Assembly: GCF_029948125.1 (NCBI RefSeq)
Contig: NZ_JASAMB010000003.1
Coordinates: 62,001 to 126,000 of the forward strand
DNA: 64,000 nucleotides
Source: Catellatospora sp. KI3
Lineage (GTDB): Bacteria; Actinomycetota; Actinomycetes; Mycobacteriales; Micromonosporaceae
Reading direction: 5' to 3'
The translations under genes and the position numbers were made by a program. The notes beneath the pieces were generated by a model. That model searched no databases, was not told the DNA's origin, and saw only the letters and a program-made list of their open reading frames with translations. This document shows, one piece after another, positions 1-4,652 of the stretch; the first letter of the stretch is position 1, and the number at the start of each line of letters is the position of its first letter.

Positions 1-2024
1 CCGGCCCGGCTGAGCACCGCGACGAGCGGTGCCAGCGCGATGAACGAGGTGCCTGGATCGGCTGACCGCGCATTCTCCTGCGCGAGCTGGGCGAATTCCA
101 GCGCTTGGGAAACATCCCGCTGAACTAGGAGGGCATTGGCGATGCCGATTAACGCGTAGGTACGCCATCGTGGTCTGACAATTGACTTTGCCAGGCCGGA
201 TGCGGCCGCTATGGTCCCCGCGTGGGCCATGGACGCCGCCGTCACCGCCAGAATCGAGCCGTCATTGTCGGCGTCGAGGTTCGCGGGATCGACGATTCCG
301 ATCAGTGTGGTGAGCAGTGCGGAGGCCCGAGTGGTGTCCTCGACGGAGGCGGCGGCCTCGATCAGGCCCGCCAGCGCCCACGCGCGCGAGTCGTGGTGCA
401 GCGCCGAAGAGGCTTCGTCGGCGGCTCGCCACCGGTCGGCTGCCGCGACGCGATCACCTGACGTCGCGTACGCCACGGCCAGGCTGGACCAGGCGTAAGC
501 CTGCCATCGTGGGGCGCCGATCCGGTTCGCGACGGCCTCGGCGCGTGGGAGGTCGCCCTGCTCGGTCAAGGCTCGGACGACCAGCGCCAGCGCCCACGCC
601 CGCCGCTCGGGGTCCGGAATCGAGTAGGCCATCTCCTCGGCCCGGTCAGGCTGCCCTAGCCGGGCCCACACGGCGGGAAGATTGACGCGCGTCCCGTCGG
701 CCCGTTTGGCCAGTCGATGGCGATGTACGGTCAGTCGGGCGATCGCGTCGAGGTCGGGCTCCGGTTGGGCGAGCAGGCGGTCCTGGCCAATTATGATCTC
801 TCTCAGGGCCGCGCCGTGGCCGCCGCTCAGGCGAAGCATCCGGTGATGGCGGGCCGGATCCGTGCCGCAGACCACCATGCGCGCCAGATCCTCGGTGTCG
901 CGCAGCACGTCGAAGTAGCCGCGCAGCAGGTACTCCGGCGTGTCGACGGGCCAGCGCCGGAGCCGGTAGCCATCGGCCCAGCCGTGCAACTGCAACCGGG
1001 ACTCGGCCAATCGGGCCGCGCCCAGACTGTCGATGGCCTCGGTCTGGAGTTCCTCGTGGCCCAGGACGTAGACGTCCGTCGGGCTTGCCCCCGTCCAGCG
1101 TGTCGTACGTCTGGCGAAGCTCCGGCCCGCGATCGTCCGCAGCTGCCGCTGCACCTGCCGGAGCGGCCGATCGGTCAGCTCCGCAAGGTCGCGGTCGCTC
1201 AGCCCGCCTCCGGCCGCAGTGAGCAGGCTCAGCAGTTCCTGGTCGGCAGATGGGCCGTCGAGCAGCCGCTGAATCTCGCGGATCATGTCCATCCGCACGA
1301 CGCCTGCCTGCGCTGAACCGCTCAGCGGCCTGACGATGCGGCCGTCGCGAAGCGGATGACCCTCCGGCACGTCGTCGGGGACGGGCGGATTCGGGCGGCC
1401 TGCCACGATGACCTTCAGGCCGTTGGGCAGCGGCCACGGCAGCATCGCCGCGACGCTGTAGGCGTCTGGCCCCAGCGTCACACCGCGATCCTCGTCCAGG
1501 CCGTCCACGACCAGGACCAGCCGCTCGCCTCGTGCGGTGCATCGGGCGGCGGTCCGGTGCAGCAGATGGAGCAGCTCCATCTCGGCGGTGGCCTCGGTAA
1601 CGGTCGGCCTCGGTTCGCCGAGCATCTCGGCGAGCTGGGGCAGCAACACGTCTACGAATGCCACCCTGTCCTGGTGCCCGCGGAACCGCGCGGTGATGAA
1701 GAAGGAGACGATCCGGACGCCTGCCGGCGGGTGCAGCACGAACCACGACAGCAGCGCGGACTTGCCCGCCCAGGCGGGAGCCTGCCAGTAGCTGTACGAC
1801 CCGGTGTCGCTGGTGCAGAAGCGTGCCAGTTCTGCCAGCTCGTCGTCACGGTCGAGCAGGCTGTCCGGCGCGATCCGCGCCACGTGCTGCTCCCGGTAAG
1901 GCGAATAGGTGGGCGCTGGGGCCACCATGTACAGGTCGCCGTTGACGATGCCGGAGTTGGCGAAACCGCCGTTGGTGGCGGTGGCGTGTCCGGTCTCGGT
2001 GGCGATGAGGCGCGGTCTGGGCAT
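1..2024 (-). CDS. STAND/NACHT-like P-loop NTPase, C-terminus cut by window edge
   Basis: At least 674 residues; the reading frame is open to base 1, so the C-terminus is missing. The ATG at 2024 has an AGAGGTGG ribosome site just upstream. The N-terminus (residues 6-26) is a Gly/Ala-rich motif of the form TGxAxAxxGGxAxSG(V/I). A Walker A (APAWAGKS, residues about 82-89) and a Walker B (LVLVVDGLDED, about 170-179) follow, then a winged-helix-like stretch. The C-terminal part is rich in Ala, Leu, Trp and Arg helices resembling TPR-like repeats. This layout (short N-terminal motif, NTPase, helical repeats) is typical of actinobacterial signalling or conflict NTPases. It follows a small membrane protein (64 bp gap, same strand) carrying two copies of the same motif. 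The family is inferred; the biological role is unknown. Confidence 0.75.
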   Translation of the reverse strand, partial: MPRPRLIATETGHATATNGGFANSGIVNGDLYMVAPAPTYSPYREQHVARIAPDSLLDRDDELAELARFCTSDTGSYSYWQAPAWAGKSALLSWFVLHPPAGVRIVSFFITARFRGHQDRVAFVDVLLPQLAEMLGEPRPTVTEATAEMELLHLLHRTAARCTARGERLVLVVDGLDEDRGVTLGPDAYSVAAMLPWPLPNGLKVIVAGRPNPPVPDDVPEGHPLRDGRIVRPLSGSAQAGVVRMDMIREIQRLLDGPSADQELLSLLTAAGGGLSDRDLAELTDRPLRQVQRQLRTIAGRSFARRTTRWTGASPTDVYVLGHEELQTEAIDSLGAARLAESRLQLHGWADGYRLRRWPVDTPEYLLRGYFDVLRDTEDLARMVVCGTDPARHHRMLRLSGGHGAALREIIIGQDRLLAQPEPDLDAIARLTVHRHRLAKRADGTRVNLPAVWARLGQPDRAEEMAYSIPDPERRAWALALVVRALTEQGDLPRAEAVANRIGAPRWQAYAWSSLAVAYATSGDRVAAADRWRAADEASSALHHDSRAWALAGLIEAAASVEDTTRASALLTTLIGIVDPANLDADNDGSILAVTAASMAHAGTIAAASGLAKSIVRPRWRTYALIGIANALLVQRDVSQALEFAQLAQENARSADPGTSFIALAPLVAVLSRA

Positions 2025-2088
2025 CCACCTCTCCGCAAAGGAGCCGTGTCGTGGCGGCTGCGGGTCACCGGCGTCACCGGCGACCGGA

Positions 2089-2436
2089 TCAGCTGAGCCG
2101 GACGCCACTGGTGGCCTCGCCGCCGTCGGCCGCCTCCGCTCGCCCGGTGCCCCGGACGGAGATCTCCCCTGATCGACCGGCGGGGGCTGTCACTCCGCTG
2201 ACGGCAGATCCTGACCCTCGGGCCTCGGCCGGGCCGGTGTCGGACACTCGTATCCCTCCCGCGCGCCGCCCCGGCAGCGCAGCCCACGCCGCCACACCCA
2301 GGGCGGCCACGGCCGCCAGGGCCGAAACCACCGCGGAGGCGTCGGCGAGATGGTCGTTTCCCACCAGCGACAGCAACAAGGCTGTCGCCGCGACGCCGAA
2401 CAGCGTGATCATCAGGACCAGGCGCCGTGCGTTCAC
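2089..2436 (-). CDS. Small two-helix membrane protein with two copies of the NTPase N-terminal motif
   Basis: 115 residues from a GTG start. Two hydrophobic helices (about residues 7-27 and 34-54) make a hairpin anchor. The soluble tail contains two 21-residue repeats, residues 62-82 and 92-112, of the pattern TGxAxAxxG(G/S)xAxSGV. Residues 6-26 of the downstream NTPase match the same pattern. It is probably co-transcribed with the NTPase. Inference: the tail recruits or activates the NTPase at the membrane, or the reverse, by like-with-like contact. No enzyme domain is visible. Confidence 0.7.
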   Translation of the reverse strand: MNARRLVLMITLFGVAATALLLSLVGNDHLADASAVVSALAAVAALGVAAWAALPGRRAGGIRVSDTGPAEARGSGSAVSGVTAPAGRSGEISVRGTGRAEAADGGEATSGVRLS

Positions 2437-2682
2437 TATGTCACCACCATCGAGTGCTTGCGGGAGCGGACGCCTGAGTCTAGGGCCTGGGCCCAGGATC
2501 GAAAGGCGACCTCGCTCGTAAGAGATCGCATGTCCCGCCCGTCTCGGCTCCCCTGGCCGTACTTGGTCGGTGCCCGTATCCGGTGGGGCGGTTCAGATCC
2601 ACCGACGATGTGGCGATCTGATCCACCCAAGTGGAGATTTCCAGAACGATGCCGGTCCGCTACGCTCCTTGAGACCGGGCCG

Positions 2683-2747: not shown

Positions 2748-2786
2748 CCGTGCCCGGACGTCCCCACACGAGAGGACTTCCTCGCA

Positions 2787-4652
2787 ATGATGAGCACGAG
2801 TCGCGGCGTCACCGTACGCCGAAGATTCGCCCTCGGTCTGGCGTCGGTTGCCGCCGTCGCCATCGTGGGCAGCACCGGTGCGGCGGCGGTCGCCGTCGCG
2901 CCGCCGTTCGGCGCGGCCGACCTCGGTGCCAACGTGACGGTCTTCGACCCGAGCACGCCGGTAGCCGAGATCCAGGCCGCCCTGGACGCCGCGAACACCG
3001 CCCAGGTCGCCAACGAGATGGGCACCGACCGGTACGCGTTCCTGTTCAAGCCGGGCACCTACGGCACGGCCGAGCAGCCGCTGCAGATCAAGGTGGGCTA
3101 CTACACCGAGATCGCGGGCCTGGGCGCCAACCCGACCGACGTCGTGATCAACGGCAAGGTCGAGGTCTACAACCGGTGCCTGGCCGACGGCGGCACCAGC
3201 AACTGCCTGGCCCTGGTCAACTTCTGGCGCACGCTGGCCAACCTGACCATCAACGTCAACGCGGCCGGCCAGGACGGCTGCCGCGCCTCGGCCGACTTCT
3301 GGGCCGTGTCGCAGGCGGTGTCGCTGCGCCGCCTCAACATCACCGGCGCGAACCTGTCGCTGATGGACTACTGCACCGCCGGCCCGCAGTACGCCAGCGG
3401 CGGCTTCATCGCCGACTCCAAGCTGCCGTTCGTCATCAACGGCTCGCAGCAGCAGTGGCTCATCCGCAACAGCCAGGTGGACGGCTGGTCCAACGGCGTG
3501 TGGAACCAGGTGTTCAGCGGCGTGGTCGGCGCCCCCGACGACGCGGCCTTCCCGGACCCGCCGTACACCACGCTGGACGCGACCCCGGTCAGCCGGGAGA
3601 AGCCGTACCTGTTCGTGGACGGCAACGGCAAGTACCAGGTGCGGGTGCCCTCGGCGCGGACGAACACCAGCGGCATCTCGTGGGCCGACGGCCTGACCGC
3701 CGGCCGCACCGTCCCGCTGAGCGACTTCTACATCGCCAAGCCGGGCGACTCCGTCGCGAAGATCAACCTGGCCCTGACGCTGGGCAAGAACCTGCTGCTC
3801 ACCCCGGGTGTGTACGACATCGCCCGCAGCATCGAGGTGTGGCGCCCCGACACCGTGGTGCTGGGCCTGGGCCAGGCGACGCTGACCGCGGTCAACGGCG
3901 CCACCCCGCTCAACCTCGCCGACGTGCCCGGCATCATCGTCGCGGGCGTCACCATCGACGCGGGCCTGCAGGAGTCCCCGGTCCTGCTGCGCGTCGGCCG
4001 CAAGCACAACTTCCTGGCCTGGTCGCAGGCGAGCAACCCGACCACCCTGTCCGACGTGTACTTCCGCGTCGGCGGCCCGCACGTCGGCAAGACCGACACC
4101 GCGCTGGAGGTCAACAGCGACCACGTGCTCATCGACCACACCTGGGTGTGGCGCGGCGACCACGGCGTGGAGGGTTTCACCGACACGCAGCGGTGGAACA
4201 CCAACACCGGCCGGTACGGCGCGGTCATCAACGGTGACCACGTCACCGCCACCGGCCTGTTCGTCGAGCACTTCCAGCGCCACAACACGGTCTGGAACGG
4301 CGAGGACGGCACCACCATCCTGTACCAGAACGAGCTGCCGTACGACCCGCCGACGCAGGCGGACTGGATGAACGGCTCGGTCGAGGGCTACTCGGCGTAC
4401 AAGGTGGGCGACAACGTGCGCACGCACAAGCTCTACGGCGGCGGCGTGTACGTGTTCAACCAGAACAACCCGTCGATCCACACCGAGAACGGCTTCGAGG
4501 TCCCGAACCGGCCCGGCGTGCAGCTGTTCCACATCATGACGGTGAACCTGAGCGCCGGCACCATCGACCACGTGGTCAACGGCATCGGCGACCCGGCCGA
4601 CACGACCCGCGTCGGCGGCCCGGTGTTCATCGCGCAGTACCCGACTCCGTAA
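2787..4652 (+). CDS. Secreted right-handed beta-helix (pectate-lyase-like) protein
   Basis: 621 residues from the ATG at 2787, preceded by AGAGGA at a good distance. The N-terminus carries RRRFALGL followed by a hydrophobic stretch and AAAVA, a Tat-like signal peptide, so the protein is probably exported. The body shows repeated short strands typical of a right-handed beta-helix and resembles secreted actinobacterial proteins named coagulation factor 5/8 or adenylyl-cyclase-like, which belong near the pectate lyase / GH55 fold. Two segments (about residues 60-300 and 325-610) start with similar phrases, KPGTYG and TPGVYD, suggesting two tandem helix domains. The two upstream LacI-type operators suggest sugar-controlled expression. 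The substrate is unknown. Confidence 0.75.
   Translation: MMSTSRGVTVRRRFALGLASVAAVAIVGSTGAAAVAVAPPFGAADLGANVTVFDPSTPVAEIQAALDAANTAQVANEMGTDRYAFLFKPGTYGTAEQPLQIKVGYYTEIAGLGANPTDVVINGKVEVYNRCLADGGTSNCLALVNFWRTLANLTINVNAAGQDGCRASADFWAVSQAVSLRRLNITGANLSLMDYCTAGPQYASGGFIADSKLPFVINGSQQQWLIRNSQVDGWSNGVWNQVFSGVVGAPDDAAFPDPPYTTLDATPVSREKPYLFVDGNGKYQVRVPSARTNTSGISWADGLTAGRTVPLSDFYIAKPGDSVAKINLALTLGKNLLLTPGVYDIARSIEVWRPDTVVLGLGQATLTAVNGATPLNLADVPGIIVAGVTIDAGLQESPVLLRVGRKHNFLAWSQASNPTTLSDVYFRVGGPHVGKTDTALEVNSDHVLIDHTWVWRGDHGVEGFTDTQRWNTNTGRYGAVINGDHVTATGLFVEHFQRHNTVWNGEDGTTILYQNELPYDPPTQADWMNGSVEGYSAYKVGDNVRTHKLYGGGVYVFNQNNPSIHTENGFEVPNRPGVQLFHIMTVNLSAGTIDHVVNGIGDPADTTRVGGPVFIAQYPTP

Follow-up and report, generated by a model that had tools for sequence, protein, structure and literature searches.

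Two neighbouring genes at the left end of the 64,000-nucleotide stretch of Catellatospora sp. KI3 DNA analysed here (the window) encode a small membrane protein and an NTPase, and a single short motif occurs twice in the tail of the former and once near the N-terminus of the latter. Is this similarity real, is it kept wherever such genes are neighbours and what might the two proteins do together?

The gene pair and its common motif

The features of the pair are as follows.

2089..2436, minus strand: 115-amino-acid two-helix membrane protein, candidate effector (ORF with GTG start)
2362..2418, minus strand: hydrophobic segment 1, membrane-protein residues 7–25 (hydropathy)
2275..2331, minus strand: hydrophobic segment 2, membrane-protein residues 36–54, rich in Ala, Gly and Val (hydropathy and alignment A3)
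2191..2253, minus strand: motif copy R1, IRVSDTGPAEARGSGSAVSGV, membrane-protein residues 62–82 (AlphaFold2 strands 62–65, 70–72 and 77–84)
2101..2163, minus strand: motif copy R2, ISVRGTGRAEAADGGEATSGV, membrane-protein residues 92–112 (AlphaFold2 strands 92–95, 100–102 and 107–114)
1..2024, minus strand: STAND NTPase with a TPR-like C-terminal part, 1,145 amino acids when complete (PADLOC STAND_TPR match)
1947..2009, minus strand: motif copy R0, LIATETGHATATNGGFANSGI, NTPase residues 6–26 counted from the ATG at 2024 (sequence)
1758..1781, minus strand: P-loop-like APAWAGKS, NTPase residues 82–89 (sequence)
1488..1520, minus strand: Walker-B-like LVLVVDGLDED, NTPase residues 169–179 (sequence)
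1..2632, no strand: right part of a segment of ∼4.1 kb (about −1450 to 2632) containing both genes (blastn of L002 against L205 and junction letters)

The NTPase gene overruns the left edge of the window by ∼1.4 kb, the full gene being L002:8588–12025 on the minus strand. GGAGAGG immediately precedes its ATG at 2024; a longer form starting at the GTG at 2108 is possible, in which case the motif would occupy residues 34–54. The two-gene segment of ∼4.1 kb is absent from the sister species G133, which has ∼120 bp in its place (blastn of L002 against L205).

An earlier note on this DNA had aligned residues 62–82 and 92–112 of the membrane protein with residues 6–26 of the NTPase without gaps, on TGxAxAxxGGxAxSG(V/I). 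Its coordinates are right, and the similarity between the two proteins exceeds chance. Over the 21 columns R1 and R2 share 12 identities, R1 and R0 eight, and R2 and R0 nine; R1 and R2 are separated by nine residues. The best ungapped 21-mer between the tail (residues 60–115) and NTPase residues 1–60 scores 42, a value that was reached by one of 10,000 shuffles (mean 16.0, s.d. 5.0), and the R1–R2 score of 49 was reached by none of 10,000.

The NTPase

The same note had placed a STAND-like NTPase beside the membrane protein, and the family search agrees: the NTPase matches the PADLOC model STAND_TPR with 322 bits (E = 2.7e-96, residues 50–572). In Pfam it matches NPHP3_N, AAA_16, NACHT and TPR_1, all below their cut-offs. 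The P-loop of its relative at locus L034, GDAWAGKS, resembles the APAWAGKS found here. With P-loop, Walker B and family profile all present, the protein is, by its sequence, a STAND NTPase of the STAND_TPR kind. A search of solved structures gave no credible match for either the NTPase or the effector.

STAND_TPR (PDLC01173) is described in PADLOC as ‘associated with cas1-less I-E system in Streptomyces’. According to that description the model includes an Xre-type HTH, whereas the N-terminus of the window NTPase carries the motif instead, and the match begins at model position 95. PADLOC's own term for STAND_TPR is ‘predicted ATPase’.

The membrane protein

Searches of Pfam and PADLOC with the 115-residue protein gave no family at E ≤ 1, and PHROGs gave none at E ≤ 0.1; its single NCBIfam match, at 14.2 bits, lies far below the 322-bit cut-off. 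Hydropathy gives two hydrophobic segments in all 19 aligned effector proteins, and conservation is strong along the second helix, which reads VAAVGVAVW in alignment A3. AlphaFold2 places helices at residues 3–24 and 30–53 of the full-length protein. A cytosolic tail is favoured by positive charges in 15 of the 19, according to a crude rule.

The AlphaFold2 model of the tail (pLDDT 86.2, pTM 0.57) has predicted strands at tail positions 3–6, 11–13 and 18–25 and again at 33–36, 41–43 and 48–55, such that each repeat has the same predicted three-strand pattern, which is also present in the full-length model. Two of the five tail models are confident (86.2 and 80.0) and the remaining three score 57.7, 57.7 and 48.9; regular solenoids can be over-predicted by AlphaFold2 for repeat sequences. 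The top Foldseek match of the tail in the PDB is to the HELLF prion amyloid fibrils (PDB entry 6eka) and is not significant (E = 2.7, TM 0.28, prob 0.05), while the full-length model returned a single match of no use (E = 7.8). The motif copies are rich in alanine and glycine and poor in the glutamine typical of prions, which we counted against an amyloid reading.

Recurrence of the pair

Three sets of loci were collected. The first contains 21 hand-picked loci, 20 of them places taken from a long match list whose tally, 300 of 300 at E ≤ 1, is uninformative. Several weaker rows were passed over for low scores or for frames that were long or interrupted by stops, among them G124, G254, G105, G149, G040 and G133, whose E-values lie between those of the places taken. 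A motif-bearing neighbour is present in 20 of the 21, as it is in all 18 actinobacterial loci from named records. When 121 genomes were scanned with a receptor-motif profile, 15 sites reached E ≤ 1e-3, three of which belonged to its training set, and 14 of these 15 are effector/partner pairs. Three loci are common to the first and named sets, and G000, G003 and G013 to the first and third. The total is 49 pairs, of which 20 come from the first set; the named records add another 15, the profile sites another 11, and L062, L210 and L211 make up the rest. The layout that had been proposed from the window, a membrane protein and a STAND NTPase with a common short motif, is therefore a recurrent one, and the concern that the motif might occur widely with no link to such NTPases is answered by the genome scan, where 14 of its 15 sites are pairs and not scattered.

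The pairs occur in three gene orders. They are divergent at L034 and L038 and convergent at L146, which argues for a linkage beyond operon inertia. Of the NTPase-like neighbours in the named set, 15 of 17 match STAND_TPR with 319–405 bits over their first ∼600 residues; those at L079 and L084, scanned in the same way, have no STAND_TPR match. Some pairs have another partner than a STAND NTPase, a minority being WD40, trypsin-like plus P-loop or membrane proteins: the partners at L045, L048, L149 and L073 look membrane-anchored, the one at L148 is a WD40 protein and that at L150 has a trypsin-like stretch. No motif-bearing partner was found at L046. At L125/L147 the NTPase is broken and the effector missing, at L051 the reading frame of the partner breaks after 90 residues, and the neighbour at L062 is an open segment of just 70 residues. 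The first ORF at L064 is a helical effector of yet another kind, and this locus is thus not counted as a hairpin pair. Actinomycete genera, which we take to be filament-forming, account for 17 of the 18 named-set loci; the remaining one is a MAG named just Actinobacteria.

A profile built from effector-side repeats alone (42 units from the 21 loci) was run over the 2,269 ORF segments of the same loci. No reversed-sequence decoy exceeds 9.0 bits, a level that 12 neighbouring partner genes surpass, the best of them with 25.4 bits and the window NTPase with 16.8 bits; one spurious forward segment, at 9.1 bits, lies slightly above the decoys. Eight of the 20 first-set partners are recognisable by eye alone, none of them above decoy level: six score 4.2–7.9 bits, and L040 and L052 are not among the 110 rows listed.

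A RHIM/PP-like comparison set was discarded. Its pattern NxGxQxGxN matched in 37 of 101 genomes of genus g50, and the 30 loci that were read encode unrelated or low-complexity proteins, several of the matched ones presumably being flavoprotein oxygenases.

Specificity within pairs

Receptor motifs are closer to the motifs of their own effector than to those of others (mean 48.0 versus 42.7, s.d. 1.2, when permuted; none of 20,000 permutations; 33 loci). This test omits L039, L072, L077, L079, L083 and L084 as duplicates or near-duplicates, L046, which has no partner, and the later profile-scan sites, L064, L210 and L211. For the STAND_TPR-like class taken separately the corresponding count is 78 of 20,000 permutations, and for the rest it is 63 of 20,000. 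At the first position of the [N/V/I][T/S]G element, N versus V/I covaries between partners. With letters assigned by hand, r is 0.56 over 35 pairs (17 of 20,000), L077, L079, L083 and L084 being omitted as duplicates or near-duplicates and L046 for want of a partner; with automatic letters, some rows of which are misread, r is 0.45 over 33 loci (161 of 20,000). The match loses significance when the STAND_TPR-like class is taken by itself (2,727 of 20,000). We regard this covariation as a supportive point of small weight.

Proposed mechanism and alternatives

We consider it likely that the two genes form a sensor/effector module with amyloid signalling like that of HET-S/NWD2 and BASS pairs, in which the effector is a minimal two-helix hairpin and not a BELL domain. 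The common motif, the 2+1 arrangement of its copies, the pairing kept across rearrangements, the closer match of motifs within pairs, the predicted three-strand repeats and the two hydrophobic segments all point this way, as does the presence of the motif on a BELL-like effector at L145. The pair probably serves as a switch for defence or cell suicide, a type already known in outline, and its membrane part is unusually simple. Judging from STAND biology, the NTPase would be the sensor and would oligomerise upon recognition of a trigger. The oligomers would gather their N-terminal motif copies into a β-solenoid seed with one rung per molecule, which the cytosolic effector tail, with its two copies, would extend by two rungs in the manner of the HET-S tail on NWD2. 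Stacking of the tails would cluster the hairpins, and the second helix, rich in small residues, may then disturb or open the membrane, leading to cell arrest or death.

A competing possibility, against which we lean slightly, is that the motif already figures among the ten published BASS families or among the pairs printed as ‘other BASS’, and that the two-helix protein is already counted among the BELL homologues. PMC8086366 describes BASS4 as a motif that effectors comparatively often carry in repeated form, like HET-s, and HET-s is its closest grammar match; glycine and alanine symbols are common in the BASS grammars given there. In one case, L145, the window motif is also carried by a BELL-like helical effector whose neighbour is an NTPase. 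Yet this is just one of 23 BELL-like matches, BASS families were defined from BELL-side sequences, and hhalign gives no profile similarity (probability 0.1) between the two-helix domain and the BELL-like family of this analysis, whose BELL identity we infer. Static tethering is unlikely: in this reading the motif, as a small β-solenoid or β-arch, would dock the NTPase to the membrane with no templated amyloid growth, and the membrane protein would be merely an anchor. The short and probably cytosolic effector tail would suit this, and homotypic adaptor domains common to effector and NTPase are known that work without amyloid (EADs, as presented in PMC7159879). However, the 2+1 copies and the near-absence of other effector domains mirror HET-S/NWD2, the second helix is conserved beyond the needs of an anchor, and the partners at L048 and L073 already look membrane-anchored, so that a tether would be unneeded.

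That the membrane protein is instead an antitoxin-like silencer, which inhibits the NTPase through the common motif, appears quite improbable. The adjacency of the genes and the motif similarity within pairs are compatible with any specific binding, but the Pfam matches of the STAND_TPR-like partners P0004, L034, L043, L146 and L074 are to NTPase families, TPR-like families or both, with no effector domain besides, the trypsin-like stretch at L150 being the exception; in the HET-S precedent, moreover, it is the effector that acts on the membrane. Convergence of low-complexity, Ala/Gly-rich tails in two functionally unlinked proteins is hardly credible. A GC-rich genome and such a composition do favour spurious matches, as the single high-scoring shuffle and the unrelated 9.1-bit segment illustrate. 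The repeat-profile scores, with partners of up to 25.4 bits against at most 9.0 for reversed decoys, the named-set pairs and the 121-genome scan among the 49 recurring pairs contradict it.

Within the preferred reading of a sensor/effector module, we suggest more tentatively that the two-helix hairpin might represent a modular class of membrane effectors, so far without a name, that respond to β-solenoid templating and are among the smallest activated by amyloid, and that the window motif might add a bacterial family, the eleventh or a later one, whose two-rung fold is HET-s-like. In addition to TGxAxAxxGGxANTG, the hairpin carries unrelated tail motifs that are common to adjacent STAND NTPases, of RVIQAGRDI type (L214/L215) and SGGxxxxxVIQGxTI type (L216/L217), and L066 provides a further candidate. 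If true, the prion-like signalling from NLR to membrane that is known in fungi and proposed in bacteria would be possible with just ∼60 effector residues and a motif tail, a module small enough for complete study by peptide fibrils, solid-state NMR and vesicle reconstitution. The use of a single effector domain with several families of motif and several types of receptor would be a natural experiment on signalling specificity, and a hairpin with a repeated tail beside a STAND gene would provide a search handle for modules missed by Pfam, NCBIfam, PADLOC and PHROGs.

Comparison with known systems

The EADs of Kaur et al. (2020; PMC7159879) resemble the window pair in that one small element is duplicated on NTPase-side and effector-side genes for homotypic recruitment. 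As characterised there, EADs came to light as domains of vWA-MoxR ternary systems, whereas the window has a motif of ∼21 residues in a two-gene layout.

BASS pairs are reported from filamentous bacteria (PMC7889193). According to the accounts in PMC7889193, PMC8086366, PMC12261475 and PMC9815663, they are adjacent genes with a C-terminal motif on a small membrane-directed effector and an N-terminal motif on the NLR or STAND protein, as in the window. Going by these descriptions, the effectors are set apart: a helical bundle with a hydrophobic helix in BELL, and a two-helix hairpin of ∼60 residues followed by two motif copies here. Pairs like that of the window likewise occur in actinomycetes that we take to be filamentous.

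No sequence homology to a HeLo domain or to HET-s was found for the window protein, nor among the Pfam matches listed for the 19 members of A3 (25 of 28 families), where the best E-value is 3.2e-4 and no family occurs in more than five members. The arrangement, as far as HET-S/NWD2 of Podospora anserina and HELLF are described in PMC4344463 and PMC7889193, is the same. HET-s contributes two rungs per monomer, each a 21-amino-acid pseudo-repeat, with a 15-amino-acid loop between them, and NWD2, the NLR adjacent to HET-s, has one such motif at its N-terminus (PMC4344463). The window loop is shorter, at nine residues compared with 15. The window effector is predicted to have three strands per repeat, like HET-S and HELLF, and its two 21-residue repeats are likewise matched by one N-terminal copy on the adjacent STAND receptor.

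The gene pair and its shared motif

The locus holding the window's pair (L002) encodes a two-helix membrane protein, the putative effector, and an adjacent STAND NTPase, the putative receptor. The features concerned are the following.

2089–2436, minus strand: small membrane protein gene (GTG start, 115 residues)
Residues 62–82 of the small protein, minus strand: effector motif copy 1, IRVSDTGPAEARGSGSAVSGV
Residues 92–112 of the small protein, minus strand: effector motif copy 2, ISVRGTGRAEAADGGEATSGV
From ATG 2024 past the window edge, minus strand: NTPase gene (1,145 amino acids; in full L002:8588–12025)
Residues 6–26 of the NTPase, minus strand: NTPase motif copy, LIATETGHATATNGGFANSGI
Residues 82–89 of the NTPase, minus strand: P-loop-like APAWAGKS
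Residues 169–179 of the NTPase, minus strand: LVLVVDGLDED
2781–4652, plus strand: conserved 623-residue protein gene on the right flank of the pair, marking the right edge of a variable segment
4728–5792, plus strand: ORF which, from the look of its sequence, we take to be DNA topoisomerase IB-like

The small protein has hydrophobic segments at residues 7–25 and 36–54, and two such segments are present in all 19 aligned small proteins; searches of Pfam, PADLOC, NCBIfam and PHROGs gave it no accepted match. The NTPase, with GGAGAGG directly 5' of its ATG, is assigned to STAND_TPR by PADLOC (322 bits) and has Pfam matches below cut-off only. Its APAWAGKS and LVLVVDGLDED resemble the Walker motifs of STAND proteins.

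The earlier note's claim that the membrane protein and the NTPase N-terminus have a motif in common is borne out. With both stretches shuffled, the score of the motif pair was reached by one of 10,000 shuffles, and the internal-repeat score of the effector tail by none of 10,000. A profile trained on the effector side only (42 repeat units from 21 loci) was run over 2,269 ORF segments from these loci, where 12 partner genes (top score 25.4 bits; the window's NTPase 16.8) and one unrelated segment (9.1) exceeded the best reversed decoy (9.0).

Recurrence of the pair

A first set of loci comprised the window's own and 20 hand-picked from a small-protein search of 300 same-family genomes. In 20 of these 21 a neighbour carries an N-terminal motif copy (two copies in L053), and L046 has no partner. 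The eight partners beyond the 12 were identified by eye; six of them score 4.2–7.9 bits with the effector-repeat profile, and the other two, in L040 and L052, are not among the 110 matches listed. Among ten partners scanned, L034 and L043 match STAND_TPR, L034 and L038 have NACHT above cut-off, L053 has NB-ARC with TPRs, and L035, L040 (both with TPRs) and L052 have AAA_16 below cut-off. The L050 partner has TPRs only in Pfam and a P-loop visible by eye, and those of L045 and L048 gave no NTPase in the family scans.

A hairpin-pattern scan of named genomes yielded 18 loci from Nonomuraea, Actinomadura, Crossiella, Kibdelosporangium, Acrocarpospora, Saccharothrix, Lentzea, Umezawaea, Labedaea, Amycolatopsis, Micromonospora, Paractinoplanes and one MAG; three (L079, L083 and L084) are judged to be on the same contigs as first-set loci. 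The motif is found on a neighbour in all 18 (by eye where the profile score was low). This neighbour is NTPase-like in 17, of which 15 match STAND_TPR (319–405 bits) and two (L079 and L084) do not, and is a membrane-anchored protein in L073. In L078:4904–9345 a single two-helix effector precedes two STAND-like NTPases that both bear a copy of the motif at the N-terminus.

The earlier note had proposed a profile search for repeated adjacency of the motif to STAND NTPases, and the motif proved to lie in gene pairs rather than at scattered sites. A receptor-motif profile of 22 sequences matched in 16 of 121 family genomes at E ≤ 0.01, and at 14 of the 15 sites with E ≤ 1e-3 effector and motif-bearing partner occur together, three of these sites (in genomes G000, G003 and G013) being already part of the profile. 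The exception, L147 in G102, lacks an effector, and its NTPase looks truncated. Weak matches in L127, L128 and L129 (E 0.004–0.006) look like noise. The L145 effector is not a hairpin: it belongs to a different, helical protein family and carries one motif copy. The partner is a large WD40 protein in L150 (by eye also with a trypsin-like stretch and a P-loop) and a smaller one with an apparent membrane segment in L148. Motif-bearing partners lacking a recognisable NTPase were seen in L148 (WD40) and in L149, L048 and L073 (membrane-anchored, with an outside-looking domain).

Altogether 49 pairs were counted: 20 from the first set, 15 further named, 11 further receptor-profile sites, and the three loci L062, L210 and L211. 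The neighbour in L062 is a segment of 70 residues. The genes are mostly co-directional, divergent in L034 and L038, and convergent in L146; the pairing thus outlasts rearrangement. Across the phylum the small-protein profile matched in only six of 396 genomes at E ≤ 1e-4, the window's own included, and the system is therefore patchy.

Presence and absence of the segment

L002 6901–8551 and 12633–14716 align with 2802–4452 and 4574–6657 of L205, the corresponding locus of the sister species G133, where some 120 bp stand in place of the roughly 4.1 kb that hold both genes. Of four other relatives compared, one (L206) matches both flanks of L002, which in it enclose about 1.9 kb of different sequence, and three (L207–L209) match on the right side only. 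Counting the window's own genome, all 11 of the genus have the right-flank 623-residue protein, with three to six matches each; in the same genomes the small-protein search gave a strong effector match in the window's genome only (next best E 8.5e-4). Be it by gain in the window's genome or by loss elsewhere, the two genes come or go as a unit.

Cognate similarity and predicted tail structure

Over 33 loci, receptor motifs score on average 48.0 against their own effector and 42.7 (sd 1.2) against random partners, and none of 20,000 permutations reached the cognate value. Within the STAND_TPR-like class it was 78 of 20,000, and for the remaining loci 63 of 20,000. Part of this similarity may stem from the shared descent of entire loci.

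AlphaFold2 predicts for the full small protein (19 sequences) two helices, then three strands per repeat at matching positions (mean pLDDT 75.2, pTM 0.42). The tail alone (18 sequences) gave the same strand pattern (pLDDT 86.2, pTM 0.57), two of the five tail models being confident. A Foldseek search of the tail over 350,542 PDB chains gave two matches at E ≤ 10. The top one, to HELLF prion amyloid fibrils (6eka), extends over the whole length but is not significant given its E of 2.7 and TM-score of 0.28. As described in PMC4344463, each HET-s monomer forms two rungs, which are 21-residue pseudo-repeats linked by a 15-residue loop, and the adjacent NLR carries one motif copy.

The effector domain with other motifs

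A hairpin-only profile (A6) matched in 14 of 246 genomes of the class. The hairpin also precedes other tails, making the two-helix effector domain modular: RVIQAGRDI-type repeats in L214 and L215, with a neighbour N-terminus like LARIYQAAGDLILYGG, and an SGGxxxxxVIQGxTI tail in L216 and L217, with one like NTISGGLFLSAVIQGHTV. In these four loci the tail motif is common to the effector and the next, STAND-like gene (L214, TPRs and a STAND match below threshold; L216, AAA_16 above cut-off and TPRs). L212 has a QARD-containing tail, and no partner was seen on the downstream side. TGERSVAAGGDIGxAVTGD-like C-terminal repeats follow a two-helix domain in L065 and L220, and other C-terminal motifs follow a two-helix membrane domain in L063, L066 and L213.

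A 230-residue helical open frame in L064:4844–6587 carries two copies of the window's motif, and the overlapping next frame two more; it is possibly a third effector type. A further helical family (L151–L173) starts like LAATGGAALVGAAATDAW. It fits the published effector domain BELL, judging by the description in PMC7889193. This BELL-like family has 23 matches in 101 genomes and uses other motifs, the window's motif occurring in one of the 23. In at least L151, L156, L161 and L167 the C-terminal motif is shared by the next gene. No profile similarity was found between the hairpin and this family.

Comparison with known signalling systems

STAND proteins oligomerise. Assembly of the receptor would bring its N-terminal motif copies together, and the assembled motif could then template the tail of the membrane-acting effector. 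The window's motif may already be on the list of bacterial amyloid-signalling (BASS) motifs: effectors of the BASS4 type comparatively often carry repeats of their motif, according to PMC8086366. For this reason we would place the pair as a variant within a known kind, that of HET-S/NWD2- and BASS-type signalling. It has the same anatomy as those signalosomes. Its unusual traits are an effector of just two helices and a doubled motif, a wide range of receptor types and the use of the same hairpin with different motifs.
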